A DNA stretch of 64,000 nucleotides from Sipunculus nudus (taxonomy: Eukaryota; Annelida; Sipuncula; Golfingiida; Sipunculidae), in the NCBI GenBank assembly GCA_026874595.1, contig CM049317.1:55276118-55340117 (forward strand), written 5' to 3'. Shown one piece after another: positions 31,871 to 62,990 of the stretch; position 1 is the first letter of the stretch; each line of letters starts with the position of its first letter. The notes beneath the pieces are model-generated. The model worked only from the letters and a program-made list of their open reading frames with translations. It was not told the origin of the DNA and did no database searches. A program made the translations under genes and the position numbers.

Positions 31871-33337
31871 GCACTCTCCTGGCCACAATTTTGCCACAAT
31901 CACCTTGAAACTTACAGGGATGTTGAAAAACATAATTTCTAGGTGCCCTATTGTTTTTGGTTAAAATAGGTCAAAGGTCAAAGGTCAAGGTCACGACAGG
32001 TATGGTTAACGGTTTTTGCACTATAACTTCGCCATTAATAGGCTTATCCACTTCTGCAATAGCTCATTTTTTTCGTCATCACCTGGCCTTTCTTTTGACA
32101 TGTAGCTTACTTAAATTTGCTGTTACCATGGTTACGCAATTTTGGGGAGAAATCATGGAATTTCGTGATATTTTTCAAATTTGCAGCAATCGTACTGATT
32201 CTGAGATATTTTATGTAACACAAGAATATCTCGAAATTGTTTTTTCAGATTTTGGAAATGGCCGCCAGGGGGCGTTGCAGATGAAAAAACATGAACATTT
32301 GTTTTGGTGCTATACCTCCAGAACTATTAAACATTGGGCCATTTCCATCACAGCACCTTCAACTGGGGTCCATGGGCTTATTTTTGCGCATAGGTGCCAA
32401 AGTGCGCTATTGCCAGATTTCTCTACTTTTGGGGTAAAACTTTTGAATTTTGAAAATATGCAGTTTTCAGCTTCTAACTCTGTCAGTTTTTATGCTGGAG
32501 AGGTCAATTTTTTTGCATCTTGTAGCCCTTGGTGAGTTCTCGGTGATCCAATCAAAAATCTTGCAAAATCTCGCACCGTTTCTCGTCAAACGAGAGTCTT
32601 CGAGATTTCATTAAATATGACCTACAGGTTGCATTTTTTTAACAATGGCTTTGAAATTGATATATTTTGTGTTATTTTATAAATATCTCGAAATCAGTTT
32701 TTCATTTTTTTGGAAATAGCCACCAGGGGGCGTGGTACCTGAAACACTGTAACATATCATTTTTCTGCAATATCTCAAAAAATATTAAACGTGACACCAT
32801 TTTTTTGGTGGTATCTGAAACTAGGAACATTGGCTTATTCCTCCGCACATGTAGCTTTGTACTGCCGTTACCATGGTTACCAAATTTTGGGGTAAAACGT
32901 GACAACTTGAAAATACGAAGTTTACCTGCTTCTATCTCTGTAGATATTTGCCATAGAAAGGTCTGGTTTTCGGCGTTAGACAGCATCCGTCTAGTTCTTA
33001 GTCATTCAATCGCAAGTCTCGTCATATCTCGCACCGTTTCTCGTGAAACGAGAACACGTGACCATTCAAAGAAATGCCTATAATTCTGTCCTTTTTACGC
33101 CACAGACACATGGTCTGCAGCGCCGGATAGCGTCGGACACTCGCAGTCACATTCAGGGGTCGCATTGTAAGTCTCGTCAAATCTCGCGCCGTGTTTCACC
33201 AAACCACGAAGTCACGTGCCGTCGCCGCAAGTGCCGGCAGGGTCCCTACGGTGGGCGGCCGGCGTGTGCAGCGGTGCGTGACGGCCTTTCCGGGCCCTGT
33301 CTATTATCATACATGTTGGAGGCACAGTCACAACTTT
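31871..33337 (+). repeat. Megasatellite body, copy 1
   Basis: Begins gcactctcctggccacaatt. Contains a run of AGGTCA half-sites (31,968-31,993), a gttaccatggttac palindrome (32,122), a CTCF-like motif (32,259-32,277), a tctcgtcaaacgaga palindrome (about 32,582), a second CTCF-like motif (32,717-32,735), a second palindrome (32,867), and a GC-rich stretch (33,105-33,305). The next copy begins 1,823 bases later. Frames of 194 and 138 codons are open here, but differences between copies are amino-acid-changing, so no coding call is made. Confidence 0.92.
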
Positions 33338-33690
33338 ATTGCTTGCCGGAAATCTTCGATTTCGGCAAGCATATTGCTCAGTTGCGTATGTCTGTTTGTC
33401 TGTTTGTTGCTTGCCGGAAATCTTCGATTTCGGCAAGCATGTTGGTCAGTTGCGTATGTCTGTTTGTTGCTTGCCGGAAATCTTCGATTTCCGCAAGCAT
33501 GTTGGTCAGTTCCGTATGTCCATTTGTCTGTTTGTTTGTTGCTTGCCGGAAATCTTCGATTTCGGCAAGTTGGTTGGTCAGTTGCGTATGTCCATTTGTC
33601 TGTTTTTTTGTTGCTTGCCGGAAATCTTCGATTTCGGCAAGCATATTGCTCAGTTGCGTATGTCTGTTTGTCTGTTTGTTTGTTTGTTTG
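33338..33690 (+). repeat. Hairpin minisatellite, 5 units
   Basis: gcttgccgg units lie between 33,340 and 33,690, in the same form as at 31,441. One unit has a mismatched right arm (gatttccgcaagc). Confidence 0.9.
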
Positions 33691-33693
33691 TCT

Positions 33694-35158
33694 GCACTCT
33701 CCTGGCCACAATTTTGCCACAATCACCTTGAAACTTGCAGGGATGATGAAAAACATAATTTCTAGGTGCCCTATTGTTTTTGGTTAAAATAGGTCAAAGG
33801 TCAAAGGTCAAGGTCACGACAGGTATGGTTAACGGTTTTTGCACTATAACTTCGCCATAAATAGGCTTATCCACTTCTGCAATAGCTCATTTTTTTCGTC
33901 ATCACCTGGCCTTTCTTTTGACATGTAGCTAACTTAAATTTGCTGTTACCATGGTTACGCAATTTTGGGGAGAAATCATGGAATTTCGTGATATTTTTCA
34001 AATTTGCAGCAATCGTACTGATTCTGAGATATTTTATGTAACACAAGAATATCTCGAAATTGTTTTTTCAGATTTTGGAAATGGCCGCCGGGGGGCGTTG
34101 CAGATGAAAAAACATGAAAATTTGTTTTCGTGCTATACCTCCAGAACTATTAAACATTGGGCCATTTCCATCACAGCACCTTCAACTGGGTACCATGGGC
34201 TTATTTTTGCGCATAGGTGCCAAAGTGCGCTATTGCCAGATTTCTCTATTTTTGGGGTAAAACTTTTGAATTTTGAAAATATGCAGTTTTCAGCTTCTAA
34301 CTCTGTCAGTTTTTATGCTGGAGAGGTCATTTTTTTTGCATCTTGTAGCCCTTGGTGAGTTCTCGGTGGTCCAATCAAAAATCTTGCAAAATCTCGCACC
34401 GTTTCTCGTCAAACGAGAGTCTTCGAGATTTCATTAAATATGACCTACAGGTTGCATTTTTTTAACAATGGCTTTGAAATTGATATATTTTGTGTTATTT
34501 ATAAATATCTCGAAATCAGTTTTTCATTTTTTTGGAAATAGCCACCAGGGGGCGTGGTACCTGAAACACTGTAACATATCATTTTTCTGCAATATCTCAA
34601 AAAATATTAAACGTGACACCATTTTTTTTGTGGTATCTGAAACTAGGAACATTGGCTTATTCCTCCGCACATGTAGCTTTGTACTGCCGTTACCATGGTT
34701 ACCAAATTTTGGGGTAAAACGTGACAACTTGAAAATACGAAGTTTACCTGCTTCTATCTCTGTTGATATTTGCCATAGAAAGGTCTGGTTTTCGGCGTTA
34801 GACAGCATCCGTCTAGTTCTTAGTCATTCAATCGCAAGTCTCGTCATATCTCGCACCGTTTCTCGTGAAACGAGAACACGTGACCATTCAAAGAAATGCC
34901 TATAATTCTGTCATTTTTACGCCACAGACACATGGTCTGCAGCGCCGGATAGCGTCGGACACTCGCAGTCACATTCAGGGGTCGCATTGTAAGTCTCGTC
35001 AAATCTCGCGCCGTGTTTCACCAAACCACGAAGTCACGTGCCGTCGCCGCAAGTGCCGGCAGGGTCCCTACGGTGGGCGGCCGGCGTGTGCAGCGGTGCG
35101 TGACGGCCTTTCCAGGCCCTGTCTATTATCATACATGTTAGAGGCACAGTCACAACTT
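33694..35158 (+). repeat. Megasatellite body, copy 2
   Basis: Nearly identical to copy 1. CTCF-like motifs lie at 34,082-34,100 (one A-to-G change in the core) and 34,539-34,557. gttaccatggttac lies at 33,945 and 34,689. The GC-rich part is 34,925-35,125. In the 136-codon frame every difference from copy 1 that I compared changes an amino acid. Confidence 0.92.
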
Positions 35159-35375
35159 TATTGCTTGCCGGAAATCTTCGATTTCGGCAAGCATATTGCT
35201 CAGTTGCGTATGTCTGTTTGTCTGTTTGTTGCTTGCCGGAAATCTTTGATTTCGGCAAGTTGGTTGGTCAGTTGCGTATGTCCATTTGTCTGTTTGTTGC
35301 TTGCCGGAAATCTTCGATTTCGGCAAGCATGTTGGTCAGTTGCGTATGTCTGTTTGTCTGTCTGTCTGTTTGTTT
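35159..35375 (+). repeat. Hairpin minisatellite, 3 units
   Basis: gcttgccgg begins at about 35,162, 35,235 and 35,299, followed by the tgtctgtctg microsatellite. Confidence 0.9.
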
Positions 35376-36780
35376 GTCTGCACTCTCCTGGCCACAAATT
35401 TGCCACAATAACCTTGAAACTTACAGGGATGATGAAAAACATAATTTCTAGGTGCCCTATTGTTTTTCGTTAACATAGGTGAAAGGTCAAGGTCAAGGTC
35501 GTCAAATCTTCCCAAAACGGTTTTTTCTTCATATCTTTGTGACTATTAGCCGTATCTACTTCAACAACAGCTCATTTTAATCGTCATTCCAAGGCCTGTC
35601 ATCTGGTGTGTAGCTGACCCAAATTTGCCGTAACCATGGTTACAAATTTTAGGGGAAAAGTCATGATATTCGAATATAAGGGGTCTTATTTTTCTAACTT
35701 TGTCAGTTTTAAAGCTAGTGTGATCTAGTTTTTTGCATCAGGTAGCATTCAACTAGTACTACAGGATTTTATAACAAGTATTGCAGTATCTCGTTAAATA
35801 TCTCGTGAATAGAGATATTTCGAGATTTAATTCATCTTTCGCCAAAGGCCACATTATTGCAGGAATCTTTCTGAAACTGACATATTATAAGTCCTACACT
35901 AGTATCTCGAAATCGTTTTTTTCATTTTTTGAATAGGGCCGCTAGGGGGCGCTGGATGCGAACCTCCCGAACATATGATATTTTGGCCATATCTCCAAAA
36001 TTATAAGCCTCAATTACATAAACTATAGCTTATTTTCTTCCTCTGAGTTTTCTCCATAACCTAGTGTAGTCATCTGGTCACAATTTTGTGACACTTTGTC
36101 AGTGTGTCTGTCTGTTTGTCAGTTGTCCACAAATTCGCCTGCTTGCTCTTGCGTCTCACATATAGCATTCTAAAGGGCACAGTTTTGAAAGAATCCTTTT
36201 GAAACTATTACATCTTAAGTCTTACACTAATATCTCGAAACCAATTTTTCATTTTCCGGATATGGCCGCTAGGGGGCGCTGAACTCGAACCTCTCCCAAC
36301 ATATCATGCTTTGGCAATATTTTCAAAACTATAAACCTCAGTTACATAAACTGTAGCTTTTTTCTTCCTTTGAGTCTTCTCCATAACCTGGAGTAGTCAT
36401 CTGGACTCAATTTTGAGTCACTTTGTCAGTGTTTTCGTCTGTTTGTCAGTTGTCCTCAAATTCGCCTGCTTGTTGGCTCTTGCGTCTCACATATAGCATT
36501 CTGTAGGCCACAGTTTTGACGGAATCCTTTTGAAACTATTACATCTTATGTCTTACACTAATATCTAGAAATAAATATTTTCATTTTCCGGATATGGCCA
36601 CTAGTGGGCGCTGCACACGACCCTCACACACATACCATTGTATTGGCCATATCTCTACACCCAAAGCCTCAGTTACATAAACTATAGCTTATGTTCTTAC
36701 TCTGAGTCTTCTCCATAACCTGGTAAAGTCATCTGGTCTCGGTCTTGGGTCACTTTGTCAGTATGTCCATATAAACTTTA
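35376..36780 (+). repeat. Module B block 1 (~330-bp tandem repeat)
   Basis: Starts like a body, then changes to ~330-base units. Each unit holds gtcactttgtcagtgtgtc, cttgcgtctcacatatagca, ctaatatctcgaaa, a CTCF-like site and cataaactatagctta. CTCF-like sites lie at 35,937-35,955, 36,263-36,281 and 36,595-36,613 (spacing 326 and 332). gtaaccatggttac, a perfect palindrome, lies at 35,629-35,642. No coding potential. Confidence 0.9.
36263..36281 (+). promoter_or_regulatory. CTCF-like motif (module B example)
   Basis: tggccgctagggggcgctg, compared with the widely used vertebrate CTCF consensus TGGCCACCAGGGGGCGCTA, differs at three positions that are tolerant in known sites. Binding in this organism is not shown. 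Confidence 0.5.
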
Positions 36781-37185: not shown

Positions 37186-37392
37186 TTCATTGCTTGCCAG
37201 ATATCTTCGATTTCTGCAGGCAGGTTCGCCAGTCGCAAATGTCTGTTTATTGCTTGCCGGAAATCTTCGATTTCGGCAAGCATGTTGGTCAGTTGCGTAT
37301 GTCTGTTTGTTGCTTGCCGGAAATCTTCGATTTCGGCAAGCATATTGCTCAGTTGCGTATGTCTGTTTGTCTGTTTGTCTGTTTGTTTGTCT
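37186..37392 (+). repeat. Hairpin minisatellite, 3 units, first diverged
   Basis: The first unit (gcttgccagatatcttcg..., about 37,191) is the most diverged in the window. Two standard units follow at about 37,254 and 37,312. Confidence 0.88.
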
Positions 37393-38853
37393 GCACTCTC
37401 CTGGCCACAATTTTGCCACAATCACCTTGAAACTTACAGGGATGTTGAAAAACATAATTTCTAGGTGCCCTATTGTTTTTGGTTAAAATAGGTCAAAGGT
37501 CAAGGTCACGACAGGTATGGTTAACGGTTTTTGCACTATAACTTCGCCATTGATAGGCTTATCCACTTCTGCAATAGCTCATTTTTTTCGTCATCACCTG
37601 GCCTTTCTTTTGACATGTAGCTTACTTAAATTTGCTGTTACCATGGTTACGCAATTTTGGGGAGAAATCATGGAATTTCGTGATATTTTTCAAATTTGCA
37701 GCAATCGTACTGATTCTGAGATATTTTATGTAACACAAGAATATCTCGAAATTGTTTTTTCAGATTTTGGAAATGGCCGCCAGGGGGCGTTGCAGATGAA
37801 AAAACATGAACATTTGTTTTGGTGCTATACCTCCAGAACTATTAAACATTGGGCCATTTCCATCACAGCACCTTCAACTGGGGTCCATGGGCTTATTTTT
37901 GCGCATAGGTGCCAAAGTGCGCTATTGCCAGATTTCTCTACTTTTGGGGTAAAACTTTTGAATTTTGAAAATATGCAGTTTTCAGCTTCTAACTCTGTCA
38001 GTTTTTATGCTGGAGAGGTCAATTTTTTTGCATCTTGTAGCCCTTGGTGAGTTCTCGGTGATCCAATCAAAAATCTTGCAAAATCTCGCACCGTTTCTCG
38101 TCAAACGAGAGTCTTCGAGATTTCATTAAATATGACCTACAGGTTGCATTTTTTTAACAATGGCTTTGAAATTGATATATTTTGTGTTATTTTATAAATA
38201 TCTCGAAATCAGTTTTTCATTTTTTTGGAAATAGCCACCAGGGGGCGTGGTACATGAAACACTGTAACATATCATTTTTCTGCAATATCTCAAAAAATAT
38301 TAAACGTGACACCATTTTTTTTGTGGTATCTGAAACTAGGAACATTGGCTTATTCCTCCGCACATGTAGCTTTGTACTGCCGTTACCATGGTTACCAAAT
38401 TTTGGGGTAAAACGTGACAACTTGAAAATACGAAGTTTACCTGCTTCTATCTCTGTAGATATTTGCCATAGAAAGGTCTGGTTTTCGGCGTTAGACAGCA
38501 TCCGTCTAGTTCTTAGTCATTCAATCGCAAGTCTCGTCATATCTTGCAACGTTTCTCGTGAAACGAGAACACGTGACCATTCAAAGAAATGCCTATAATT
38601 CTGTCATTTTTTACGCCACAGACACATGGTCTGCAGCGCCGGATAGCGTCGGACACTCCAGTCACATTCAGGGGTCGCATTGTAAGTCTCGTCAAATCTC
38701 GCGCCGTGTTTCACCAAACCACGAAGTCACGTGCCGTCGCCGCAAGTGCCGGCAGGGTCCCTACGGTGGGCGGCCGGCGTGTGCAGCGGTGCGTGACGGC
38801 CTTTCCGGGCCCTGTCTATTATCATACATGTTGGAGGCACAGTCACAACTTTA
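37393..38853 (+). repeat. Megasatellite body, copy 3
   Basis: CTCF-like motifs lie at 37,774-37,792 and 38,232-38,250. gttaccatggttac lies at 37,637 and 38,382. The GC-rich part is about 38,620-38,820. It is nearly identical to copies 1 and 2. Confidence 0.92.
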
Positions 38854-38955: not shown

Positions 38956-39826
38956 AATTTTGCCACAATCACCTTGAAACTTTCAGAGATGATGGAGAAT
39001 TAAATTTCTAGGTGCCCTATTGTTTTTGGTCAAAATAGGTCAAAGGTCAAGGTCAAGGTCATCAAAACTTCTCAAAACGGTTTTTTCTTCATATCTTTGT
39101 GAATAATAGTCATATCTACTTCAACAATAGCTCATTTTAATCGTCATTCCAAGGCCTGTCATCTGCTGTGTAGCTGACTCAAATTTGCCGTAACCATGGT
39201 TACAAATTTTGGGGAAAAGTCATGATATTCGAAAATAAGGGGTCTTATTTTCCTAACTTTGTCAGTTTTAAAGCTAGAGTGATCAAGTTTTTTGCATCAG
39301 GTAGCATTCAACTAGTACTACAAGATTTTATTACAAGTCTTGCAGTATCTCGTAAAATATCTCGTGAATAGAGATATTTCGAGATTTCATTCATCTTGCG
39401 CCAAAGGCCAAATTATTGCAGGAATCATTTTGAAACTAACATATCATAAGTCCTACACTAGTATCTCAAAATCGTTTTTTCATTTTTTTAATATTACTGC
39501 TAGGGGGCGCTGCATACGACCCTCACACACATATCATTACATTGGCCATATCTCTAAAACCCAAAGCCTCAATCACATAAACTATAGCTTATTTTTTCCC
39601 TCTGAGTCTTCTCCATAAACTGATAATGTCATCTGGTCTCAATCTTGTGTCACTTTGTCAGTGTGTCCGTCTGTTTGTCAGTTGTCCTCAAATTTGGCTG
39701 CTTGCTGATTCTTGCGTCTCGCATATAGCATTCTACAGGCCACAGTTTTTAAAGAAGCATTTGAAAACTGATGCATATTATATTTTACAAAAATATCTCA
39801 CAATTTTTTTTTTCATTTTCCGGATA

Positions 39827-39845
39827 GGGCCGCTAGGTGGCGCTG
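39827..39845 (+). promoter_or_regulatory. CTCF-like motif (GGTGGC variant)
   Basis: gggccgctaggtggcgctg has the AGGTGGC core common in real vertebrate CTCF sites. Most neighbours have AGGGGGC. Confidence 0.5.
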
Positions 39846-40161: not shown

Positions 40162-40180
40162 TAGCCACTAGGGGGCGCTG
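40162..40180 (+). promoter_or_regulatory. CTCF-like motif (full core match)
   Basis: The core ccactagggggcgc matches every position of the degenerate consensus CCASYAGRKGGCRS. Function is inferred only. Confidence 0.5.
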
Positions 40181-40540
40181 CACCTTCACCTCCCCAACAT
40201 ATCATGTTTTGGCCATATCTCCAAAATTATAAACCTTATCTACATAAACCATCGCTAATTTTGCTCTTCTTTGCCTTCGGCACTTTTGTCTGGTAATCTG
40301 TTATCACAGATGTGTCAGTATGTTTGTCTGTTAGTCTTTTGTGGTCAGCTTTGTCTGCTTCCTCGTTGTTTTGTCTGATATGTCATTTTACAGGCCACAA
40401 CTTCTCAGCAAACGCTGAGGGTCATTCAAATAATAGAAACCCCACAATATGTTCTGTCTGTCCATCTGTCTGTCATTTCAACTTCCGGCAAGCGTTCGAC
40501 CTCTGGTCGTCTAGTTTTTTTGTTTTTTTGTGTGTTTGTC

Positions 40541-40745: not shown

Positions 40746-42477
40746 GTCATCACCTGGCCTGTCATCTGGTGTGTAGCTGACTCAAATTTGAAGTAACCAT
40801 GGTTACAAATTTTTGGGGAAAAGTCATGATATTCGAAAATAAGGGGTCTTATTTTTGTAACTTTGTCAGTTTTAAAGCTAGAGTGATCTAGTTTTTTGCA
40901 TCAGGAAGCATTCAACTAGTACTACAAGATTTTATTACAAGTCTTGCAGTATCTCGTAAAATATCTCGTGATTAGAGATATTTCGAGATTTAATTCATCT
41001 TGCGCCAAAGGCCACATTATTGCAGGAATCTTTTTGAAACTGACATATTATAAGTCCTATACTAGTATCTCGAAATTGTTTTTTCATTTTTTGAATAGGG
41101 CCGCTAGGGGGCGCTGGATGCGAACCTCCCGAACATATCATATTTTGGCCATATCTCAAAAATTATAAGCCTCAATTACATAAACTATAGCTTATTTTCT
41201 TCCTCTGAGTTTTCTCCATAACCTAGTGTAGTCATCTGGTCACAATTTTGTGACACTTTGTCAGTGTGTCTGTCTGTTTGTCAGTTGTCCTCAAATTCGC
41301 CTTCCTGCTCTTGCGTCTCACATATAGCATTCTACAGGCCACAGTTTTGAAAGAATCCTTTTGAAACTATTACATCTTAAGTCTTACACTAATATCTCGA
41401 AACCAATTTTTCATTTTCCGGATATGGCCGCTAGGGGGCGCTGAACTCGAACCTCTCCGAACATATCATGCTTTGGCAATATCTCCAAAACTATAAACCT
41501 CAGTTACATAAACTGTAGCTTTTTTCTTCCTTTGAGTCTTCTCCATAACCTGGATTAGTCATCTGGACTCAATCTTGAGTCACTTTGTCAGTGTTTTCGT
41601 CTGTTTGTCAGTTGTCCTCAAATTCGCCTGCTTAATTGTTGGCTCTTGCGTCTCACATGTAGCATTCTATAGGCCATAGTTTTGAGGGAATCTTTTTGAA
41701 ACTATTACATCTTATGTCTTACACTAATATCTAAAAATAAATTTTTCATTTTCCGGATATGGCCACTAGTGGGCGCTGCACACGACCCTCACACATACCA
41801 TTATATTGGCCATATCTCTACACCAAAAGCCTCTGTTATATAAACTATAGCTTATTTTCTTCCTTTGAATCTTCTCCATAACCTGATTAAGGCATCTGGT
41901 TTCAATCTTCTGTCACTTTGTCAGTGTGTCCATCTGTTTGACCGTTATCCTCAAAGTCGCCTGCTTGCTGGTTCTTACTCCTTACATATAGCATTCTACA
42001 GGCCACGGCTTTGACGGAATCCTTTTAAAACTGGGACATCTCATGTCATACACTAATAATACGAAACGCATTTGTCGTCTTCGGAATATGTCTCCTAGAG
42101 GGCGCTACAGTCGAGCCTCCCAAGTATATATATAATTCGCCATACCTCCAAAACTATAAATCTAAATTACATAAATTATAACTCATTTTCTTCCTTTGAA
42201 TCTTCTCAATCACTAGGTTATGTCATCTGGTGTCAATCTTGTCTCACAAAGTCACTATGTCCCTCTGTTCGTCTTTTGTTGTCAGTTTTGTCTGCTTGCC
42301 TGTTCTTTTGTCTCATATGTCATTCTACGGGCCACATATTCTCAGCAATGTCCCTGAGAGTCATTCCATTAATAGAAAACCGACAATATGTTCTTTCTGT
42401 CCGTCTGTGTTTCACTTCCGATTTCCGGCAAGCGTTCGACCTATGGTCGTCTAGTTTGTTTTTTTGTGTGTTTGTCT
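40746..42477 (+). repeat. Module B block 3
   Basis: CTCF-like motifs lie at 41,098-41,116, 41,425-41,443, 41,760-41,778 and 42,089-42,107 (spacing 327, 335, 329). gtaaccatggttac lies at 40,793-40,806. The block ends with half a hairpin and cgacctatggtcg (42,437-42,449). Confidence 0.9.
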
Positions 42478-42800: not shown

Positions 42801-44880
42801 GTCAGTTTTTAAGCTAGGCAGATCTAGTTTTCGGCATTTTGTTCCACATGATCAGCTTGACACGACAGAACTGAAAGTCACGCCAAACCTCGCGCCATAT
42901 CTCGTCAATCGAGAAAAAACGAGACTTCGCGGAAATGCTTATAACTCGGCGACTTTTACAGCTAGACAGGTCTGGTTTTCGGCATTTCGTTCCACCAAAC
43001 AAGCTTGACACGACAGAGCTGCAAGACAGGCCAAATCTCGCACCGTATCTCGTCAAACGAGAAAACACGGGATTTCACGGAAATGCTTATAACTGGGCCA
43101 GTTTTACAGCTAGACACGTCTGGTTTTCGGCATTTAGTTCCACTAGACCAGCTTGACACGACAGATATGCAAGTGCCGTTACCATGGTTATATTTTTTGG
43201 GCAAAAATCATGGAAATTGGAAATAACACGACCATTTTTTGTAACTTTGTCAATTTATAAGCTACAGACGTCTGGTTTTGGTCATTATGTACGTTATAGG
43301 CAGCTTGACATGATAAAACTGAAAATCTCGCCAAATCTCGCACCATTTCTCGTCAAACGAGAGTCTTCGAGATTTCATTAAATATGACCTACAGGTTGCA
43401 TTTTTTTAACAATGGCTTTGAAATTGATATATTTTGTGTTATTTATAAATATCTCGAAATCAGATTTTCATTTTTTGGAAATAGCCACCAGGGGGCGTGG
43501 TACCTGAAACACTGTAACATATCATTTTTCTGCAATATCTAAAATAATTTTAAACATGGCACAATTTTTATCGTTGTATCTTAAACTAGGAACATTGGCT
43601 TATTCCTCCGCACATGTAGCTTTGTGCTGCCGTTACCATGGTTACCAAATTTGTGGGTTAAACTTGACGATCTGAAAATATGCAGTTTTTGGCTTCTATC
43701 TCGGTTAATATTTATGTTTCAAGGGTCTAGTTTTTTGTATAAGGCTGCTTCCCCTTGGTTCTATGTCATTCAATTGCAAGTCTCGTCAAATTTCGCTCGG
43801 TTTATCGTCAAACGAGAAAAAACGAGATTTCACAGAAATGCTTATAACTCGGCGACTTTTACAGCTACACAGGTCTAGTTTCCGGCATTTCATAACATAT
43901 GACCAGCTTGACACGCCAGAAAAGAAATCAGGCCAAATCTCGCACCATATCTCGTCAAGCGAGAAAAAAACGAGATATCATGGAAATGCTTATAACTAGG
44001 CGACTTTTACAGCTACTCAGGTCTAGTTTTTGGCATTTGGTAACATTTGGCCAACTTGACATAGTAAAACTGCGATACTTGGCAAAATCTCGCACTATAT
44101 CTGGTCAAATGTGGAAAAACGAGATTTCACAGAAATGCATATAAGTCGTCGACTTTCACGGCTAGACAGGTCTAGTTTATGGCATTCATTAACATTTGGA
44201 CGGCTTGACATGACAAACCTGCAAGACTGGCCAAATCTCGCACCATATCTCGTCAAACGATAAAAAAGGAGATTTCACAGACATGCTAATAACTCGGCGA
44301 CTTTTACAGCAAGACAGATGTAGTTTTCGCCATTTCATAACATTTAGAGAGTTTGATATGACAAATCTACAAGACTGGCCAAATCCTGCACCATATCTCG
44401 TCAAACGAGAAAACACGAGAGTACACGGAAATGCTTATAACTCGGCGACTTTTACAGCTAGACGGATCTAGTTTTCGCCATTTCGTAACGTTTGGCCGTC
44501 TTGACATAATAAAACTGCTCGTCTTGCCAAATCTCGTACTATATCTCGTCAAGCGAGAAAAAAACATGATTTCACGTAAATGCTGATGACACGGCTACTT
44601 TTGAAGCTAGACAGGTCTAGTTTCCGGCATTTTGTAATATTTGACAAACCTGACATGACAAAACTGGAAATCTCGCCAAAGCTCGCACCATTTCCCGTCA
44701 AACGAGAAAACACGACATTTCATGCAAATACTTATAACTCAGCGGCTTTTATAGCTAGGCAGGTCTAGTTTTCGGCATTTCATATCATTTGGCCAGCTTG
44801 ACATGACAAACCTGAAAACGTCTCACTGCTTCTTGTCAAACGAGATTAACGGGATTTCATGAAAAAATTTTGAACTTTGT
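42801..44880 (+). repeat. 148-bp palindromic satellite, block 1
   Basis: The central palindrome (ctcgtcaaacgag or variants) begins at 42,901, 43,049, then 43,804, 43,951, 44,101, 44,249, 44,397, 44,545 and 44,694, a period of 147-150. A stretch at 43,380-43,800 is a piece of body with a CTCF-like motif (43,482-43,500) and gttaccatggttac (43,632). Each unit also has gcttataactcggcgacttt and acaggtctagttttcggcat. Because 148 is not a multiple of three, frames break after one or two units. Confidence 0.93.
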
Positions 44881-48137: not shown

Positions 48138-48507
48138 CAGTCGAACCTCCCAAGTATATCATTAATTCGCCATACCTCCAAAACTATTAATCTAAATTAC
48201 ATTAATTATAACTCATTTTCTTCCTTTGAATCTTCTCCATAACCAGGTTAAGTCATCTGGTGTCAATCTTGTCTCACAAAGTCAGTATGTCTGTCTGTTT
48301 GTCTTTTGTTGTCGGCTTTGTCTGCTTGCCTGTTCTTTTGTCTCATATGTCATTCTACGGGCCACATATTCTCAGCAATGTCCTTGAGAGTCATTCCATT
48401 GATAGAAAACCGACAAAATTTTCTGTCTGTCCATCTGTGTTTCACTTCCGATTTCCGGCAAGCGTTCGACCTATGGTCGTCTAGTTTGTTTTTTTGTGTG
48501 TTTGTCT

Positions 48508-48800: not shown

Positions 48801-50155
48801 AAAATAACACGACCATTTTTTTGTTACTTTGTTAGTTTTTAAGCTAGGCAGATCTAGTTTTCGGCATTTTGTTCCACATGACCAGCTTGACACGACAGAA
48901 CTGAAAGTCACGCCAAATCTCGCGCCATATCTCGTCAAACGAGAAAAAACGAGACTTCGCGGAAATGCTTATAACTCGGGGACTTTTACAGCTAGACAAG
49001 TCTGGTTTTCGGCATTTCGTTCCACCAAACAAGCTTGACACGACAGAGCTGCAAGACAGGCCAAATCTCGCACCGTATCTCGTCAAACGAGAAAACACGA
49101 GATTTCACGGAAATGCTTATAACTAGGCCAGTTTTACAGCTAGACACGTGTGGTTTTCGGCATTTAGTTCCACTAGACCAGCTTGACACGACAGATATGC
49201 AAGTCTGGCAAAATCTCGCACCGTATCTCGTCAAACGAGAAAACACGAAATTTCACGGAAATGCTTATAACTCGGCCAGTTTTACAGCTAGACAGGTCTG
49301 GTTTCCGGCATTTCCTTCCACATGACCAGCTTGACACGATAGATGTGCAAGTCAGGCCAAATCTCGCACCCTATCTCGTCAAACGAGAAAACACGAGATT
49401 TCACGGAAATGCTTATAACTCGGCGAGTTTTACAGCTAGACAGGTCTAGTTTTCGGCATTCATTAACATTTGGACGGCTTGACATGACAAACCTGCAAGA
49501 CTGGCCAAATCTCGCACCATATCTCGTCAAACGATGAAAAAGGAGATTTCACAGAAATGCTAATAACTCGGCGACTTTTACAGCTAGACAGATGTAGTTT
49601 TCGCCATTTCATAACATTTAGAGAGTTTGATATGACAAATCTTCAAGACTGGCCAAATCCTGCACCATATCTCGTCACACGAGAAAACACGAGAGTACAC
49701 GGAAATGCTTATAACTCGGCGACTTTTACAGCTAGACGGATCTAGTTTTCGCCATTTCGTAACGTTTGGCCGTCTTGACATAATAAAACTGCTCGTCTTG
49801 CCAAATCTCGTACTATATCTCGTCAAGCGAGAAAAAAACATGATTTCACGTAAATGCTGATAAGACGGCGACTTTTGCAGCTAGACAGGTCTAGTTTCCG
49901 GCATTTTGTAATATTTGACAAACCTGACATGACAAAACTGGAAATCTCGCCAAAGCTCGCACCATTTCCCGTCAAACGAGAAAACACGACATTTCATGCA
50001 AATGCTTATAACTCAGCGGCTTTTATAGCTAGACAGGTCTGGTTTTCGGCATTTCATATCATTTGGCCAGCTTGACATGACAAACCTGAAAACGTCTCAC
50101 TGCTTCTTGTCAAACAAGATAAACGGGATTTCAGGAAAAAATTTTGAACTTGGTC
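48801..50155 (+). repeat. 148-bp palindromic satellite, block 3
   Basis: About nine units without the body insert present in block 1. An example palindrome has outer arms AAATCTCG (49,063-49,070) and CGAGATTT (49,098-49,105) around TCTCGT-CAA-ACGAGA. Confidence 0.93.
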
Positions 50156-50437
50156 CCTTTTACACTAGAAAGATATGCAGCTGTTAAAGGTCAGCATGCA
50201 TAAATAAACATATTATCCGTTTCTGCTGCCCCGACAATGTTGCTCATTCATATGACTGTTTCTACATGCACTCTCTGTCTATCTGTCTGTATCATTTCCA
50301 TTTCCGGCAAGCGCGTGACCTCTGGTCATCTTGTTGCTTGCCGGAAGATTTCCGGCAAGCATGTTGGTCAGTTGCGTATGTCCATTTGTCTGTTTGTTTT
50401 TTTGTTTTTTTTGTTTTTTTGTTTTTTTGTGTGTTTG
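50156..50437 (+). repeat. Satellite tail and hairpin (short-stem type)
   Basis: Tail as at 44,881, then tgacctctggtca (50,316-50,328), one short-stem hairpin unit at about 50,336 and a T-rich gtttttttg tract that joins module C. Confidence 0.88.
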
Positions 50438-50775
50438 TCTGCGCTCTCCTGGCCACAATTTTGCGGCAATCGACATGACCCTTACAGGGTTGATTGACAA
50501 CCGAACACCCTGGAACCCTATTGTTTTTGGTCAACATTGCTCCAAGGTCAAGGGTCAAGGTCACGACAGGTGTGGTTAACGGTTTTTGCACTATAACTTC
50601 GCCATAAATAGGCTTATCCACTTCTGCAATTGCTCATTTTTTTCGTCATCACCTGGCCTTTCTTTTGATATGTAGCTTACTTAAATTTGCCGTTACCATG
50701 GTTACATTTTTTGGGCAAAATTCATGGGAATTGGAAATAACACGACCATTTTTTTGTAACTTTGTCAGTTTTTTA
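50438..50775 (+). repeat. Module C
   Basis: Module C follows a hairpin unit directly here, with no module B. gttaccatggttac lies at 50,692-50,705. Confidence 0.88.
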
Positions 50776-52225
50776 GCTAGGCAGATCTAGTTTTCGGCAT
50801 TTTGTTCCACATGACCAGCTTGACACGACAGAACTGAAAGTCACGCCAAATCTCGCGCCATATCTCGTCAAACGAGAAAAAACGAGACTTCGCGGAAATG
50901 CTTATAACTCGGCGACTTTTACAGCTAGACAGGTCTGGTTTTCGGCATTTCGTTCCACCAAACAAGCTTGACACGACAGAGCTGCAATACAGGCCAAATC
51001 TCGCACCGTATCTCGTCAAACGAGAAAACACGAAATTTCACGGAAATGCTTATAACTAGGCCAGTTTTACAGCTAGACACGTGTGGTTTTCGGCATTTAG
51101 TTCCACTAGACCAGCTTGACACGACAGATATGCAAGTCTGGCAAAATCTCGCACCGTATCTCGTCAAACGAGAAACACGAAATTTCACGGAAATGCTTAT
51201 AACTCGGCCAGTTTTACAGCTAGACAGGTCTGGTTTCCGGCATTTCCTTCCACATGACCAGCTTGACACGATAGATGTGCAAGTCAGGCCAAATCTCGCA
51301 CCCTATCTCGTCAAACGAGAAAACACGAGATTTCACGGAAATGCTTATAACTCGGCGAGTTTTACGGCTAGACAGGTCTAGTTTTCGGCATTCATTAACA
51401 TTTGGCCAACTTGACATAGTAAAACTGCGATACTTGGCGAAATCTCGCACTATATCTGGTCAAATGTGGAAAAACGAGATTTCACAGAAATGCATATAAG
51501 TCGGCGACTTTCACGGCTAGACAGGTCTAGTTTTTGGCATTCATTAACATTTGGACGGCTTGACATGACAAACCTGCAAGACTGGCCAAATCTCGCACCA
51601 TATCTCGTCAAACGATAAAAAAGGAGATTTCACAGACATGCTAATAACTCGGCGACTTTTACAGCTAGACAGATGTAGTTTTCGCCATTTCATAACATTT
51701 AGAGAGTTTGATATGACAAATCTAGAAGACTGGCCAAATCCTGCACCATATCTCGTCAAACGAGAAAACACGAGAGTACACGGAAATGCTTATAACTCGG
51801 CGACTTTTACAGCTAGACGGATCTAGTTTTCGCCATTTCGTAACGTTTGGCCGTCTTGACATAATAAAACTGCTCGTCTTGCCAAATCTCGTACTATATC
51901 TCGTCAAGCGAGAAAAAAAACATGATTTCACGTAAATGCTGATAACACGGCGACTTTTGCAGCTAGACAGGTCTAGTTTCCGGCATTTTGTAATATTTGA
52001 CAAACCTGACATGACAAAACTGGAAATCTCGCCAAAGCTCGCACCATTTCCCGTCAAACGAGAAAACACGAGATTTCATGCAAATGCTAATAACTCAGCG
52101 GCTTTTATCGCTAGACAGGTCTAGTTTTCGGCATTTCATATCATTTGGCCAGCCTGACATGACAAACCTGAAAACGTCTCACTGCTTCTTGTCAAACGAG
52201 ATTAATGGGATTTCATGAAAAAAAT
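50776..52225 (+). repeat. 148-bp palindromic satellite, block 4
   Basis: About ten units, ending in the shared tail. The first units match block 3 and the middle ones match block 1. Confidence 0.93.
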
Positions 52226-52560
52226 TTGAACTTGGTCCCTTTTACACTAGAAAGATATTCAGCTGTTAAAGGTCAGCATGCATAAATAAACATATTATCC
52301 GTTTCTGCTGCCCCGACAATGTTGCTCATTCATATGACTGTTTCTACATGCACTCTGTCTATCTGTCTGTATCATTTCCATTTCCGGCAAGCGCGTGACC
52401 TCTGGTCATCTTGTTGCTTGCCGGAAATCTTCGATTTCGGCAAGTTGGTTGGTCAGTTGCGTATGTCCATTTGTTTGTTGCTTGCCGGAAATCTTCGATT
52501 TCCGCAAGCATATTGGTCAGTTGCGTATGTCTGTTTGTCTGTCTGTCTGTTTGTTTGTCT
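52226..52560 (+). repeat. Satellite tail and two hairpin units
   Basis: Tail, tgacctctggtca (52,396-52,408), then hairpin units at about 52,414 and 52,480. The second has the mismatched right arm seen at 45,061. Confidence 0.88.
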
Positions 52561-54028
52561 GCACTCTCCTGGCCACAATTTTGCCACAATCACCTTGAAA
52601 CTTACAGGGATGATGAAAAACATAATTTCTAGGTGCCCTATTGTTTTTGGTTAAAATAGGTCAAAAGTCAAAGGTCAAGGTCACGACAGGTATGGTTAAC
52701 GGTTTTTGCACTATAACTTCGCCATAAATAGGCTTATCCACTTCTGCAATAGCTCATATTTTTCGTCATCACCTGGCCTTTCTTTTGACATGTAGCTTAC
52801 TCAAATTTTCTGTTACCATGGTTACGCAATTTTGGGGAGAAATCATGGAATTTCGTGATATTTTTCAAATTTGCAGCAATCGTACTGATTCTGAGATATT
52901 TTATGTAACACAAGAATATCTCGAAATTGTTTTTTCAGATTTTGGAAATGGCCGCCAGGGGGCGTTGCAGATGAAAAAACATGAACATTTGTTTTGGTGC
53001 TATACCTCCAGAACTATTAAACATTGGGCCATTTCCATCACAGCACCTTCAACTGGGGTCCATGGGCTTATTTTTGCGCATAGGTGCCAAAGTGCGCTAT
53101 TGCCAGATTTCTCTACTTTTGGGGTAAAACTTTTGAATTTTGAAAATATGCAGTTTTCAGCTTCTAACTCTGTCAGTTTTTATGCTGGAGAGGTCAATTT
53201 TTTTGCATCTTGTAGCCCTTGGTGAGTTCTCGGTGATCCAATCAAAAATCTTGCAAAATCTCGCACCGTTTCTCGTCAAACGAGAGTCTTCGAGATTTCA
53301 TTCAATATGACCTACAGGTTGCATTTTTTTAACAATGGCTTTGAAATTGATATATTTTGTGTTATTTTATAAATATCTCGAAATCAGTTTTTCATTTTTT
53401 GGAAATAGCCACCAGGGGGCGTGGTACCTGAAACACTGTAACATATCATTTTTCTGCAATATCTCAAAAAATATTAAACGTGACACCATTTTTTTTGGTG
53501 GTATCTGAAACTAGGAACATTGGCTTATTCCTCCGCACATGTAGCTTTGTACTGCCGTTACCATGGTTACCAAATTTGGGGGTAAAACGTGACAACTTGA
53601 AAATACGAAGTTTACCTGCTTCTATCTCTGTTGATATTTCCCATAGAAAGGTCTGGTTTTCGGCGTTAGACAGCATCCGTCTAGTTCTCAGTCATTCAAT
53701 CGCAAGTCTCGTCATATCTCGCACCGTTTCTCGTGAAACGAGAACACGTGACCATTCAAAGAAATGCCTATAATTCTGTCATTTTTTTACGCCACAGACA
53801 CATGGTCTGCAGCGCCGGATAGCGTCGGACACTCGCAGTCACATTCAGGGGTCGCATTGTTAGTCTCGTCAAATCTCGCGCCGTTTTTCGCCATACCACG
53901 AAGACACTCGCCGTCGCCGCAAGTGGCGGCAGGGTCCTTACGGTGGGCGGCCGGCGTGTGCAGCGGTCCGTGACGGCCTCTCCGGGCCCCGTCTATGATC
54001 ATACATGTTGGAGGCACAGTCCATACTT
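52561..54028 (+). repeat. Megasatellite body, copy 5
   Basis: Full-length body. CTCF-like motifs lie at 52,949-52,967 and 53,406-53,424. gttaccatggttac lies at 52,812 and 53,557. The GC-rich part is about 53,800-54,005, slightly more diverged than in copies 1-3. Confidence 0.92.
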
Positions 54029-55480
54029 TATTGCTTGCCGGAAATCTTCGATTTCCGCAAGCATATTGGTCAGTTGCGTATGTCTGTTTGTCTGTCTGTC
54101 TGTTTGTTTGTTTGTCTGTATGTACACGCGCTACAGGCCACAGTTTTTAAGCAATCGCTCTGAAACTTATACATTAAATGTAAGATTGGTTCTCCTCGGA
54201 GCCTATTGTTTTTGGTCATGATCGGTCAAAGGTCAAGGTCAGGGTCACCAAAAAACCTAACATTTTTACTTTCTTCATATCTTTGTCAATAATAATCGTA
54301 GCCGCATAATCTGTAGCTCATTTTATTCCTCTTTATGTTAGCTTTCCAAGTGCTAGCAAATTTTTCTGGTCGATTGTTACCAACGTAACGTATTTTTGGG
54401 GGAAAATCAGAAAATTCGAAAATTTCACTCAAAATTTTCCATTTTTTAAGTTAGAGAGGTCTAGTTTTTTGCATTGTGTAGCATTTAATATGCTCTATGG
54501 AAAATTAACGGGAGTCTCGCAAAATCTCGTGCCATTTTTCGTCAAATGAGACTTTTCGAGATTTCATTAAAAACGATTTAGAGGTGGCAGTTTTACAGCT
54601 AAGGTTCTAAAAGTGACATATTTTCTGTTTTTCTGTATTATCTCGAACTTGTTTTTTCATTTTTTGAAATTAACCACCAGGGGGCGTGGTACTGGAAACA
54701 CTGCAACTTACCATTTTTCTGCAATACCAAAAAAAATATTAAACGTGGCACAATGTTTACTGTCTTATCTGAAACTAGGATCGTCGGCTTAATCCTGCGT
54801 ACATGTAGCTTTGCGCTGCTGTTACCATGGTAACCAAATTTTGGGGTAAAACTTGGCAATCTGAAAATAATAAGTTTTTTGCTTCTATCTCTGTTAATAT
54901 TTATACTACAAGTGTCTAGTTTTCTGCATGAGGTAGCATTCCCTTGCCACTAATGCAGTTAATTGCAAGTCTCGTAGAATCTCGCTCTGTTTTGCGTCAA
55001 ACAAGAAATCACGAGATTTCACAGAAATGCATATAACTTGGTCACCTTTTCGGCTAAAGAGGAGCAGTTTTCAGCATTTTGTTGCGTTTTGGGAGCTTAA
55101 CAAGATAATAACTTATATCTCGCCACATCTCGTACCATCTCCCGCCAAACGAGAATATTCGAGAATTCGAACAAATGTCTATATCTCTGTCATTTGAATG
55201 CCAGAGATTTTATTTTTCTATTGTTCAAGATTCACTTGACTAGTTTGAAGTGACAAAATTGAATATCTCGTCATATCTCGCATCATTTCTTGTCAAACGA
55301 GAACATGGGACCATTCAAAGATACGCCTATAATTCTGTTATTTTAATGCTGAAGACCTTTAGTTTTCAGCATTCGATAGCGTCTAACCCTCTCGGTCACA
55401 TTATGTGTTTATATTGTAAGTTTCGTCAAATCTGGGATCGTTTTTTCTTAAAAAAAAAAAAGTACATCCTATTGCCGTGA
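54029..55480 (+). repeat. Diverged terminal body copy
   Basis: After one hairpin unit, a body relative follows with the same module order but many differences. CTCF-like motif at 54,671-54,689. A perfect GTTACCATGGTAAC lies at 54,821-54,834. Decayed 148-bp-like units follow. It ends at a T/A run near 55,440-55,460, the right edge of array part 1. It is probably the oldest copy. Confidence 0.8.
54821..54834. promoter_or_regulatory. Perfect X-box palindrome
   Basis: GTTACCATGGTAAC is an exact RFX X-box form. Other copies in the array have one off-consensus base (gttaccatggttac). Function is inferred only. Confidence 0.45.
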
Positions 55481-59880: not shown

Positions 59881-60290
59881 TTCCGGTAACTTCCGACAAG
59901 CGTTCGACCTCAGGTCGTCTAGTTTGTTTTTTTGTTTGTTTTTTTGTGTGTTTGTCTGCGCTCTCCTGGCCACAATTTTGCAGCAATCGACATGACCCTT
60001 ACAGGGTTGATTGACAACCGAACACCCTGGAACCCTATTGTTTTTGGTCAACATTGCTCCAAGGTCAAGGGTCAAGGTCACGACAGGTGTGGTTAACGGT
60101 TTTTGCACTATAACTTCGCCATAAAAAGGCTTATCCACTTTTGCAATAGCTCATTTTTTTCGTCATCACCTGGCCTTTCTTTTGATATGTAGCTTACTTA
60201 AATTTGCCGTTACCATGGTTACATTTTTTGGGCAAAAATCATGGAAATTGGAAATAACACGACCATTTTTTTGTAACTTTGTCAGTTTTT
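59881..60290 (+). repeat. Module C, start of array part 2
   Basis: Begins abruptly with a damaged half hairpin (ttccgacaagcg) and cgacctcaggtcg (59,905-59,917), then module C with gttaccatggttac at 60,209-60,222. Confidence 0.88.
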
Positions 60291-61560
60291 AAGCTAGGCA
60301 GAACTAGTTTTCGGCATTTTGTTCCACATGACCAGCTTGACACGACAGAACTGAAAGTCACGCCAAATCTCGCGCCATATCTCGTCAAACGAGAAAAAAC
60401 GAGACTTCGCGGAAATGCTTATAACTCGGCGACTTTTACAGCTAGACAGGTCTGGTTTTCGGCATTTCGTTCCACCAAACAAGCTTGACACGACAGAGCT
60501 GCAAGACAGGCCAAATCTCGCACCGTATCTCGTCAAACGAGAAAACACGGGATGTCACGGAAATGCTTATAACTGGGCCAGTTTTACAGCTAGACACGTC
60601 TGGTTTTCGGCAATTAGTTCCACTAGACCAGCTTGACACGACAGATATGCAAGTCTGGCAAAATCTCGCACCGTATCTCGTCAAACGAGAAAACACGAAA
60701 TTTCACGGAAATGCTTATAACTGGGCCAGTTTTACAGCTAGACACGTCTGGTTTCCGGCATTTCCTTCCACATGACCAGCTTGACACGATAGATGTGCAA
60801 GTCAGGCCAAATCTCGCACCCTATCTCGTCAAACGAGAAAACACGAGATTTCACGGAAATGCTTATAACTCGGCGAGTTTTACAGCTAGACAGGTCTAGT
60901 TTTCGGCATTTTCTTTCACATGACCTGCTGGACATGACAGAACTGAAAGTCAGGCCGAATGTCGCACCGTATCTCGTCAAACGAGAAAACATGAGATTTC
61001 ACGGCATTGGTTATAACTCGGCGAGTTTTACAGATAGACACGTCTGGTTTTCGGCATTTTGTTCCACTAGACCAGCTTGACATGACAGACATGCATGTCA
61101 GGCAAAATCTCGCACCGTATCCCGTCAAACGAGAAAACACGAGATTTCACGGAACTGCAGCTAGACAGGTCTAGTTTTCGGCATTTAGTTCCACATGACC
61201 CGCTTGGCATGACAGAACTCCAAGTCAGGCACAATCTCGCACCGTATCTCGTCAAACGAGAAAACACGAGATTTCACCAAAATGCTTTTAACTCGGCGAT
61301 TTTTACAGGTACGAAGGTCTAGTTTTCGGCATTGTGTCACATATGAACTGCTTGATTAGATAAAGCCATAAGTCTGCCCAAATCTCGCACCATATCTTGT
61401 GCAACGTGAACAAACGAGATGTCACTGAAATGCTTATAACTCGGCGCCTTTTACAACAAAGTAGTTCTAGTTTTCGGCATTTTGTCACATATGACCAGCT
61501 TGACATGACAAACCTGAAAACGTCTCACTGCTTCTTGTCAAACGAGATTAACGGGATTTC
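60291..61560 (+). repeat. 148-bp palindromic satellite, block 5
   Basis: About nine units. One unit (around 61,150) carries an internal deletion that shortens it. Outer units are more diverged than in block 3. Confidence 0.92.
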
Positions 61561-61851
61561 ATGAAAATTGAAGTTGGTCCCTTTTACACTAGAAAGATAT
61601 GCAGCTGTTAAAGGTCAGCATGCATAAATAAACATATTATCCGTTTCTGCTGCCCCCACAATGTTGCTCATTCATATGACTGTTTCTACATGCACTCTCT
61701 TTCTATCTGTCTGTATCATTTAAATTTCCGGCAAGCGCGTGACCTCTGGTCATCTTGTTTTTTTGTTTATTGCTTGCCGGAATCAAAGATTTCGGCAAGC
61801 ATATTGCTCAGTTGCGTATGTCTGTTTGTCTGTTTGTCTGTTTATTTGTCT
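61561..61851 (+). repeat. Satellite tail and hairpin (aaa-loop type)
   Basis: Tail, tgacctctggtca (61,740-61,752), then one hairpin unit with the gaatcaaagatttc form at about 61,772. Confidence 0.88.
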
Positions 61852-62990
61852 GCACTCTCCTGGCCACAATTTTGCCACAATCACCTTGAAACTTACAGCG
61901 ATGATGAAAAACATAATTTCTAGGTGCCCTATTGTTTTTGGTTAAAATAGGTCAAAGGTCAAGGTCAAGGTCACGACAGGTATGGTTAACGGTTTTTGCA
62001 CTATAACTTCGCCATAAATAGTTTTATCCACTTCTGCAATAGCTCATTTTTTTCGTCATCACCTGGCCTTTCTTTTGACATGTAGCTTACTTAAATTTGC
62101 TGTTACCATGGTTACGCAATTTTGGGGAGAAATCATGGAATTTCCTGATATTTTTCAAATTTGCAGCAATCGTACTGATTCTGAGATATTTTATGTAACA
62201 CAAGAATATCTCGAAATTGTTTTTTCAGATTTTGGAAATGGCCGCCAGGGGGCGTTGCAGATGAAAAAACATGAACATTTGTTTTGGTGCTATACCTCCA
62301 GAACTATTAAACATTGGGCCATTTCCATCACAGCACCTTCAACTGGGGTCCATGGGCTTATTTTTGCGCATAGGTGCCAAAGTGCGCTATTGCCAGATTT
62401 CTCTATTTTTGGGGTAAAACTTTTGAATTTTGAAAATATGCAGTTTTCAGCTTCTAACTCTGTCAGTTTTTATGCTGGAGGGTTCAATTTTTTTGCATCT
62501 TGTAGCCCTTGGTGAGCTCTCGGTGATCTAATCAAAAATCTTGCAAAATCTCGCACCGTTTCTCGTCAAACGAGAGTCTTCGAGATTTCATTAAATATGA
62601 CCTACAGGTTGCATTTTTTTAACAATGGCTTTGAAATTGATATATTTTGTGTTATTTATAAATATCTCGAAATCAGATTTTCATTTTTTGGAAATAGCCA
62701 CCAGGGGGCGTGGTACCTGAAACACTGTAACATATCATTTTTCTGCAATATCTAAAATAATTTTAAACATGGCACAATTTTTATCGTTGTATCTTAAACT
62801 AGGAACATTGGCTTATTCCTCCGCACATGTAGCTTTGTGCTGCCGTTACCATGGTTACCAAATTTGTGGGTTAAACTTGACGATCTGAAAATATGCAGTT
62901 TTTGGCTTCTATCTCGGTTAATATTTATGTTTCAAGGGTCTAGTTTTTTTGCATAAGGCTGCTTCCCCTTGGTTCTAAGTCATTCAATTG
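61852..62990 (+). repeat. Megasatellite body, copy 6 (5' two thirds)
   Basis: Parallel to copy 4 with the same 3' boundary. CTCF-like motifs lie at 62,239-62,257 and 62,695-62,713. gttaccatggttac lies at 62,102 and 62,845. Confidence 0.9.

Follow-up and report, generated by a model that had tools for sequence, protein, structure and literature searches.

Same-facing CTCF-type motifs in a Helentron-type transposon array of Sipunculus nudus that CTCF can probably bind

Rodent SINE B2 is a retroposed short interspersed nuclear element (SINE) that has spread CTCF sites, and the ISX element of Drosophila miranda is reportedly a Helitron. Expansion of transposable elements in rodents added CTCF sites (PMC7520972) and, in vertebrates, a block of same-facing CTCF sites stops cohesin on one side (PMC7645679). 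For the Helitron class, tandem whole elements have been described (PMC7492417). Here we analyzed a 64,000-nt stretch of the Sipunculus nudus genome (the window; C12:55276118-55340117 of the 1.43-Gb assembly), in which a first-pass annotation had noted about 28 CTCF-like motifs and had likened their repeat to those that spread CTCF sites. That comparison was apt in that a mobile repeat multiplies a CTCF-type motif across the genome, and the identity of the carrier can now be corrected: judged from its ends and internal structure, it is a HINE (non-autonomous Helentron) or Helentron-type transposon family that occurs genome-wide. The first-pass reading is thereby supported in part, and we propose that the window probably holds transposon arrays that CTCF is able to bind.

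All 28 motifs are present in the window sequence, with the start placed at 35937 corrected to 35936. A search with the consensus TGGCCGCYAGGGGGCGYTG, allowing three or fewer mismatches, returned 25 matches in the window, all on the forward strand, compared with a mean of 0.00 in 100 shuffles. The annotated close match to the vertebrate CTCF consensus was borne out when we scored the sites with the vertebrate matrix JASPAR MA0139.1 (entered by hand; p<1e-5 corresponds to a cut of 12.18 bits). At this cut 26 of the 28 sites pass, the two below it being 42089 (10.9 bits) and 47788 (10.5 bits), and 25 score at least 18 bits, with a median of 22.35 bits and a matrix maximum of 30.6. Letter-shuffled words of the same composition reached 18 bits at a frequency of 4.5e-5 of 560,000. 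Region 31440-64000 contains 26 forward and 7 reverse matches at the cut, compared with a mean of 1.05 and a maximum of 3 in 20 Markov resamples, and positions 1-31000 contain zero forward matches and one reverse match. The scoring against shuffles that the first-pass annotation had proposed thus refutes the reading of the motifs as no better than random GC-rich words. With no consensus match in the shuffles and matrix scores far above the resamples, an origin by chance or as a GC-rich artefact was rejected.

The proposal of a single orientation held for the strong sites and failed for eight weak reverse-strand matches (12.8-13.4 bits), seven of which lie at one fixed repeat position just after the 5' modules (31867, 33690, 35376, 37389, 45138, 52557 and 61848; 13.4 bits). 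As annotated, the motifs occupy fixed places in the repeat; they are copies within homologous repeat units, and so the 28 sites are not 28 independent events. Nor does their common orientation count as independent evidence, since each site has its set position within mobile-element units that all face the same way. A model built from the flanks only found 28 units in the window, corresponding to 27 of the listed sites plus a motif-less unit at 54223; it missed 47130, where the upstream flank has been replaced. The unit at 54223 has lost the motif and reads CGGTCAAAGGTCAAGGT, resembling paired AGGTCA half-sites.

For the element ends, we retrieved 20 loci of contig C1 containing the exact motif word, mostly isolated ones. 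These loci contain stretches homologous to the window that stop abruptly within unrelated flanks. At the 5' end, TT typically borders GCTTGCCGGAA, which is followed by a complementary inverted repeat; at the 3' end, TTCCGGCAAGC and a short spacer typically precede a GACC-NNN-GGTC palindrome, then CTAG or CTTG, and then TT. The ends share a pair of subterminal inverted repeats (subTIRs) of 13 bp, 5' GCTTGCCGGAAAT and 3' ATTTCCGGCAAGC, which is perfect in copies such as L021, is 11 bp in the GCTTGCCGGAATC variant and has single mismatches in some copies (for example L017 and L031). Subterminal inverted repeats of at least 11 bp, which mark the HINE class, are therefore present, as is the TT insertion in T-rich DNA expected of it: T occupies -1, -2 and +1 in all 17 stretches with both ends, and +2 in 16 of them. 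Five further 3' ends in the fetched loci had no 5' end in reach. The two-ended stretches span 1070 to 4768 bp and have between 1 and 8 forward sites each; the bait used for choosing loci inflated this number, and the longer stretches may be several joined elements. The inverted repeat adjoining the 5' subTIR is predicted to form a hairpin of -13.3 kcal/mol (z -6.2; one copy folded, window 45059-45092), and the palindromes CGACC-TAT-GGTCG and TGACC-TCT-GGTCA near the 3' terminus are predicted to fold only slightly more stably than shuffled sequences (z about -1.4). Downstream of the 5' modules comes a TGTC/TGTT microsatellite, and some elements are filled with 148-bp tandem repeats; both features are frequent in HINEs but not obligatory. 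Ends, palindrome, microsatellite and repeats all match HINE features as given in the available parts of PMC4067079 and PMC7492417.

In the window, all eight recognised 3' ends lie on the forward strand, and three of them are joined to the next 5' end with no intervening DNA. Three reverse matches of the 5' pattern fall within the hairpin of forward 5' modules, and self-comparison of the window gave no reverse-strand match of 60 bases or more within 31-64 kb. The single motif orientation therefore follows from the head-to-tail placement of copies of a polar element; that rolling-circle copying caused the head-to-tail array we infer from the element class. According to PMC7492417, inner copies of tandem elements are often cut at the 3' end, and the window 5' modules that lack a 3' end suggest such copies. 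The three classes of motif-bearing unit (body 1, body 2 and module B) share a block of about 60 bases, comprising the ATATCTCGAAA stretch and TTTTCA and running into the motif, with looser alignment beyond. From this shared block we infer descent of all three from one ancestral unit. A simple satellite was rejected as the carrier, as the units lie inside elements that have ends and dispersed insertions. In a test of coding capacity, Pfam at E 0.01 found no family in the three long frames taken from the array (of seven proteins scanned). For the tRNA-derived head expected of a SINE, ARAGORN found no tRNA and Rfam at gathering scores gave no match, although a decayed head could be missed. At 47130, L013:4951 and L027:4292, homology breaks within a few bases of the motif or shortly before it, possibly marking a template-switch hot spot.

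Outside the window the word is abundant. The genome contains 4178 exact copies of the 19-mer, two of whose positions are Y (2076 forward and 2102 reverse), compared with 0 for the reversed control. The C-type canonical core CCRCYAGRKGGCRS, whose count leaves out the window body motifs (these end in GT), is found 13,274 times versus 62 for the reversed-pattern control. Among the first 100 of these cores listed (C1, 0.08-7.66 Mb), 89 lie within 5 kb of another and 11 form solitary blocks, and in 73 of 74 close pairs both cores face the same way. Of the blocks, one packs 25 sites into 20 kb and one is divergent. This divergent block (C1:7643439-7658865) has 12 reverse then 4 forward cores, as is typical of domain borders in vertebrates. 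Judging by their spacing and strand and by the fetched loci, the clustered C-type cores probably belong to the HINE-type family, which seems to supply most of the canonical C-type cores of the genome. A second core with G at position 7, CCAGYAGRKGGCRS, is also enriched (1270 versus 32 in the control, about 40-fold), and this type was not seen among the recognisable variants of the family that were compared. In contrast to the C-type cores, 94 of the first 100 CCAGYAGRKGGCRS cores stand alone, and in 43 of 96 distant pairs both cores face the same way. The enrichment of CCAGYAGRKGGCRS outside the HINE-type family indicates that the CTCF word is probably in general genomic use, even if these cores could partly sit in other dispersed repeats. 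The genome therefore seems to have CTCF-type sites in general, to which the transposon family adds clustered, same-facing ones.

The genome encodes a clear CTCF ortholog (C11:67037578-67038510), which matched the human finger array (query entered by hand) with 374 bits and 56% identity, the next match scoring 198 bits. Both an above-chance matrix match and a CTCF protein are thus found in this species. By eye the ortholog has 11 fingers, and the helices of fingers 3-5 differ from those of human CTCF (structure 7w1m) in two residues (V to L and R to P). Its SVYDFKEE aligns with human SVYDFEEE, so that the YDF cohesin-docking peptide is kept; CTCF residues 226-228 are called the most potent part in genome folding in mouse cells (PMC7645679). 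The closest named CTCF homologs are from an annelid, a brachiopod and molluscs. Y[DE]F precedes finger 1 in 40 of the 44 homologs checked (51 returned, 7995 candidates scored); named homologs with an SVYDF-like peptide come from an annelid, a brachiopod, molluscs, chelicerates, a priapulid and a cricket, and Haliotis is among the four without it. The genome also has at least 325 C2H2 zinc-finger matches, and among the matches listed such genes are clustered on C16 (38-62 Mb), C7, C9 and C11.

To ask how the motif fares in inserted copies, we used the flank-only models, which identified 120 units, 92 of them in the 20 loci and the other 28 in the window. With all 80 module B units kept, identity is 0.853 in the motif versus 0.834 in the rest (rank 104 of 306); the corresponding values are 0.938 versus 0.916 for body-2 units (24, none dropped) and 0.965 versus 0.992 for body-1 units (7 of 16 dropped as baits). 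Substitution rates in the motif and the rest are 0.161 and 0.173 outside CpG, and 0.246 and 0.28 in CpG. A retention simulation (53 of 66 versus 36.0 expected) was not used, as it compared the best of several offsets with a fixed-offset null and was biased upward. These data give no convincing signal that selection keeps the motif in inserted copies, where it decays about as fast as its flank. Two weaker comparisons hint at retention, possibly in active lineages. When the 10 unit types of the array are compared, the 13-bp core ranks second for conservation among 190 windows (0.843 versus 0.637 outside the motif) and the full 19 bases rank 8 of 184. In addition, 30 distinct motif variants score 18.9 versus a flank-based null of 15.6 (0 of 2000 draws as high); of 42 distinct variants, 8 were dropped for gaps, as were 3 that had at least 12 changes. 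Both results are weakened by shared ancestry.

Taken together, our preferred reading, with a probability of roughly 0.62, is that this region consists of HINE-structure transposons arrayed in one orientation and partly head to tail, likely made by rolling-circle copying, whose unit motif the host CTCF would likely bind. In this scheme a Helentron-type element carries the CTCF word in its internal units and would multiply it by spreading, and its fixed polarity, together with head-to-tail copies, would yield a run of sites that all face one way. Where the DNA is accessible, some copies would be occupied by host CTCF and, if orientation acts as in mammals, cohesin would stall on one side only. 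Many motif copies seem to be a by-product of transposition, decaying after insertion like the surrounding DNA. Binding by host CTCF is likely, and polar looping is possible. A bolder version, which we hold only tentatively and consider rather unlikely, is that a protostome has acquired multi-site CTCF barriers of coherent orientation from rolling-circle transposons: with polar elements concatenated head to tail, transposition alone would give strong one-way cohesin stops, and the family would supply most canonical CTCF cores of the genome.

Several observations weigh against the preferred reading. In the 66 dispersed module B units (the 80 outside the window minus 14 exact bait matches), motif identity is 0.821 and that of the rest 0.824 (rank 178 of 306), and in 100 copies chosen by flank, 19 distinct derived changes cost a mean of 4.67 bits versus a null of 4.33 (p 0.70). 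C>T change is 2.3 times as frequent at CpG as at other C (0.247 versus 0.106), and some methylation is therefore possible. The finger-6 helix of the ortholog reads QSNSLKAH, compared with QSGTMKMH in human. The reversed-pattern control matches composition, not dinucleotides, and holds a fixed CG; the identity of clustered cores as the HINE-type element was checked in the fetched loci only; and 6 of the 20 loci have one opposite-strand strong site (at least 18 bits), all of these outside the window-homologous stretches. CTCF sites at domain borders follow no orientation rule in flies (PMC7645679) or in echinoderms (PMC13317027), as described in the parts of these papers available to us. For spiralians, a 2023 review (PMC10658181) names, in its available part, a single study tying CTCF to domain borders.

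Some of the same data would suit a motif that is an accidental passenger of the transposon, with most copies unbound, in heterochromatin or behind a competing complex, and the array inert in 3D folding. Decay of the motif at the pace of its flank and the raised C>T change at CpG agree with this, and a precedent is offered, by its title, by work on suppressed looping at SINE-derived CTCF sites (cited in PMC13317027). However, when 100 of 1712 copies were chosen by flank (motif bases 15-18 being fixed by the pattern and base 19 assumed), 97 motifs were still above the cut; CpG is undepleted in the repeats (observed/expected 0.92-0.99, versus 0.78 at 1-31000); and the same core is present elsewhere in the host genome. 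We regard an inert array as unlikely, if a serious contender. The motif might instead serve the element, being kept in transposing lineages because binding of a host factor, be it CTCF or a different zinc-finger protein, benefits the element, for example by opening chromatin, while dead copies lose the motif freely. The conservation of the 13-bp core across unit types and the high-scoring variants fit such a function, as does motif change that, relative to the flank, is greater within clusters than between them at two of three cuts (core Fisher p 0.023 and 0.0043; third cut 0.49). Set against this, the motif changes no more slowly than the flank between clusters (steps per column for motif and flank at the three cuts, 4.38/3.85, 3.92/3.63 and 3.77/3.13; units with <60% flank coverage excluded), the faster change within clusters could be explained by its CpGs alone, the 30 variants share ancestry and the test of derived changes was null. 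We consider a role for the element improbable.

We are equally doubtful that the host maintains the array as a functioning boundary or loop anchor acting in one direction, along the lines of the insulator or loop-anchor block suggested in the first-pass annotation. Its sites are dense, strong and same-facing, and the host CTCF has the cohesin-docking peptide. On the other hand, the motif shows no convincing selection signal, similar blocks occur elsewhere (including the one with 25 sites in 20 kb), and dependence on orientation outside vertebrates is not established in the available parts of PMC13317027, PMC7645679 and PMC10658181. Least credible, and in our view very improbable, is recognition of the word by a different C2H2 zinc-finger protein that silences the element, its resemblance to the CTCF site being convergence. 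The large and, among the matches listed, largely clustered C2H2 repertoire would provide candidates, but canonical cores that are solitary and diverse in sequence also occur in this genome, and these fit CTCF. We therefore retain the reading of a transposon array with a motif that host CTCF would likely bind; the layout of its features is given in Table 1.

Table 1. Layout of the transposon array in window coordinates, with motif scores on the CTCF matrix.
Feature	Position	Strand	Score (bits)
Tandem 5' modules, HINE-type (5' subTIR GCTTGCCGGAA + complementary inverted repeat, then TGTC/TGTT microsatellite)	31440..31871	+	
CTCF-type motif, body site 1	32259..32277	+	22.99
CTCF-type motif, body site 2	32717..32735	+	22.05
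Tandem 5' modules	33335..33680	+	
CTCF-type motif, body site 1	34082..34100	+	19.0
CTCF-type motif, body site 2	34539..34557	+	22.05
Tandem 5' modules + microsatellite	35157..35380	+	
CTCF-type motif, module B unit	35936..35954	+	24.37
CTCF-type motif, module B unit	36263..36281	+	26.25
CTCF-type motif, module B unit	36595..36613	+	22.48
Tandem 5' modules + microsatellite	37190..37390	+	
CTCF-type motif, body site 1	37774..37792	+	22.99
CTCF-type motif, body site 2	38232..38250	+	22.05
CTCF-type motif, module B unit	39494..39512	+	13.98
CTCF-type motif, module B unit	39827..39845	+	23.1
CTCF-type motif, module B unit	40162..40180	+	27.03
HINE 3' end: subTIR, palindrome, CTAG, then TT	40486..40516	+	
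CTCF-type motif, module B unit	41098..41116	+	24.37
CTCF-type motif, module B unit	41425..41443	+	26.25
CTCF-type motif, module B unit	41760..41778	+	22.48
Decayed CTCF-type motif, under cut	42089..42107	+	10.93
HINE 3' end	42426..42456	+	
148-bp central tandem repeats	42807..43173	+	
CTCF-type motif, body site 2	43482..43500	+	22.05
148-bp central tandem repeats	43805..44817	+	
Direct head-to-tail junction: 3' end immediately then 5' end	45030..45102	+	
CTCF-type motif, body site 1	45529..45547	+	18.85
CTCF-type motif, body site 2	45986..46004	+	22.05
148-bp central tandem repeats	46309..47114	+	
CTCF-type motif, module B unit, upstream flank replaced by 148-bp repeat	47130..47148	+	27.17
CTCF-type motif, module B unit	47457..47475	+	26.25
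Decayed CTCF-type motif, under cut	47788..47806	+	10.51
CTCF-type motif, module B unit	48119..48137	+	22.22
HINE 3' end	48456..48486	+	
148-bp central tandem repeats	48837..50091	+	
Direct head-to-tail junction: 3' end immediately then 5' end	50305..50377	+	
148-bp central tandem repeats	50754..52170	+	
Direct head-to-tail junction: 3' end immediately then 5' end	52385..52457	+	
CTCF-type motif, body site 1	52949..52967	+	22.99
CTCF-type motif, body site 2	53406..53424	+	22.05
5' module + microsatellite	54030..54123	+	
CTCF-type motif in diverged body-2 unit	54671..54689	+	20.67
HINE 3' end	59894..59924	+	
148-bp central tandem repeats	60287..61519	+	
HINE 3' end, short T-rich spacer, next 5' end	61729..61813	+	
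CTCF-type motif, body site 1	62239..62257	+	22.99
CTCF-type motif, body site 2	62695..62713	+	22.05
148-bp central tandem repeats	63019..63972	+	

Other repeats are also present in the window. Inside the array, a 365-bp tandem repeat (55926-57696; 4.8 copies, 90% matches) lies in a stretch of positive GC skew and has no CTCF-type match at the p<1e-5 cut. Outside it, a 289-bp tandem repeat (1-1404) contains TGACCT-like words, which we take to be nuclear-receptor half-site-like, and a 275-bp repeat (19794-20457; 2.4 copies) adjoins an AT microsatellite. Elsewhere in the assembly, a cox1 search returned 11 matches, nine with nearly equal scores on eight contigs (C60, C61, C62, C66, C72, C74, C75 and C89), one CcoN-like (C123) and one short (C5), among which no host mitochondrion was recognised. 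One of the nine alike matches (L033) reads as bacterial, and the relatives of the one cox1 searched have at most 58% identity among the best 80. The oxidase genes make it likely that cobiont bacteria are in the assembly. A scan for viral contigs gave four matches.

The role of CTCF-site orientation outside vertebrates is treated as open in the available parts of PMC13317027 and PMC10658181. Strong same-facing sites at many places, varying in number by locus, offer a natural series of dose and orientation: polar extrusion by CTCF and cohesin in this lineage, if it exists, should produce stripes that originate at the arrays and extend in one direction. Copying polar elements head to tail would be a route to one-direction site clusters without selection for direction, and mobile DNA may in this way build ready-made chromosome-folding signals. 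Were the transposon-barrier idea true, polar loop extrusion would exist outside vertebrates, with a CTCF that keeps YDF, and would have been repeatedly rewired by Helentrons. Among the papers listed on Helentrons, Helitrons, CTCF and spiralian transposable elements, titles and abstract openings gave no report of a Helentron carrying CTCF sites.

The closest likeness is to Cg_HINE of the Pacific oyster, which PMC7492417 describes with a 5' subTIR and complementary inverted repeat, a 4-nt microsatellite, central tandem repeats, a 3' subTIR and palindrome, T-rich TT insertion, and satellite-like arrays dispersed genome-wide. The two families differ in sequence, and a CTCF-type motif is not mentioned for Cg_HINE in the passages of that paper available to us; here some elements have a motif-bearing module B array besides or instead of the 148-bp repeats. 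Like ISX of D. miranda, which dispersed binding sites for a chromatin complex (77 functional in ISX; PMC4384637), the present family is a mobile element that disperses candidate sites of this kind; for ISX both binding and selection have been shown, whereas our case is argued from sequence, and the factor and host differ. The terminal inverted repeat motif of placozoan Mutator elements (PMC12221973) is likewise a transposon-borne word in an invertebrate, associated there with chromatin loops for which contact data exist, in a different transposon class. In contrast to SINE B2, the carrier here is a DNA element with the structure of a Helentron, and each stretch bears 1-8 sites that face the same way.

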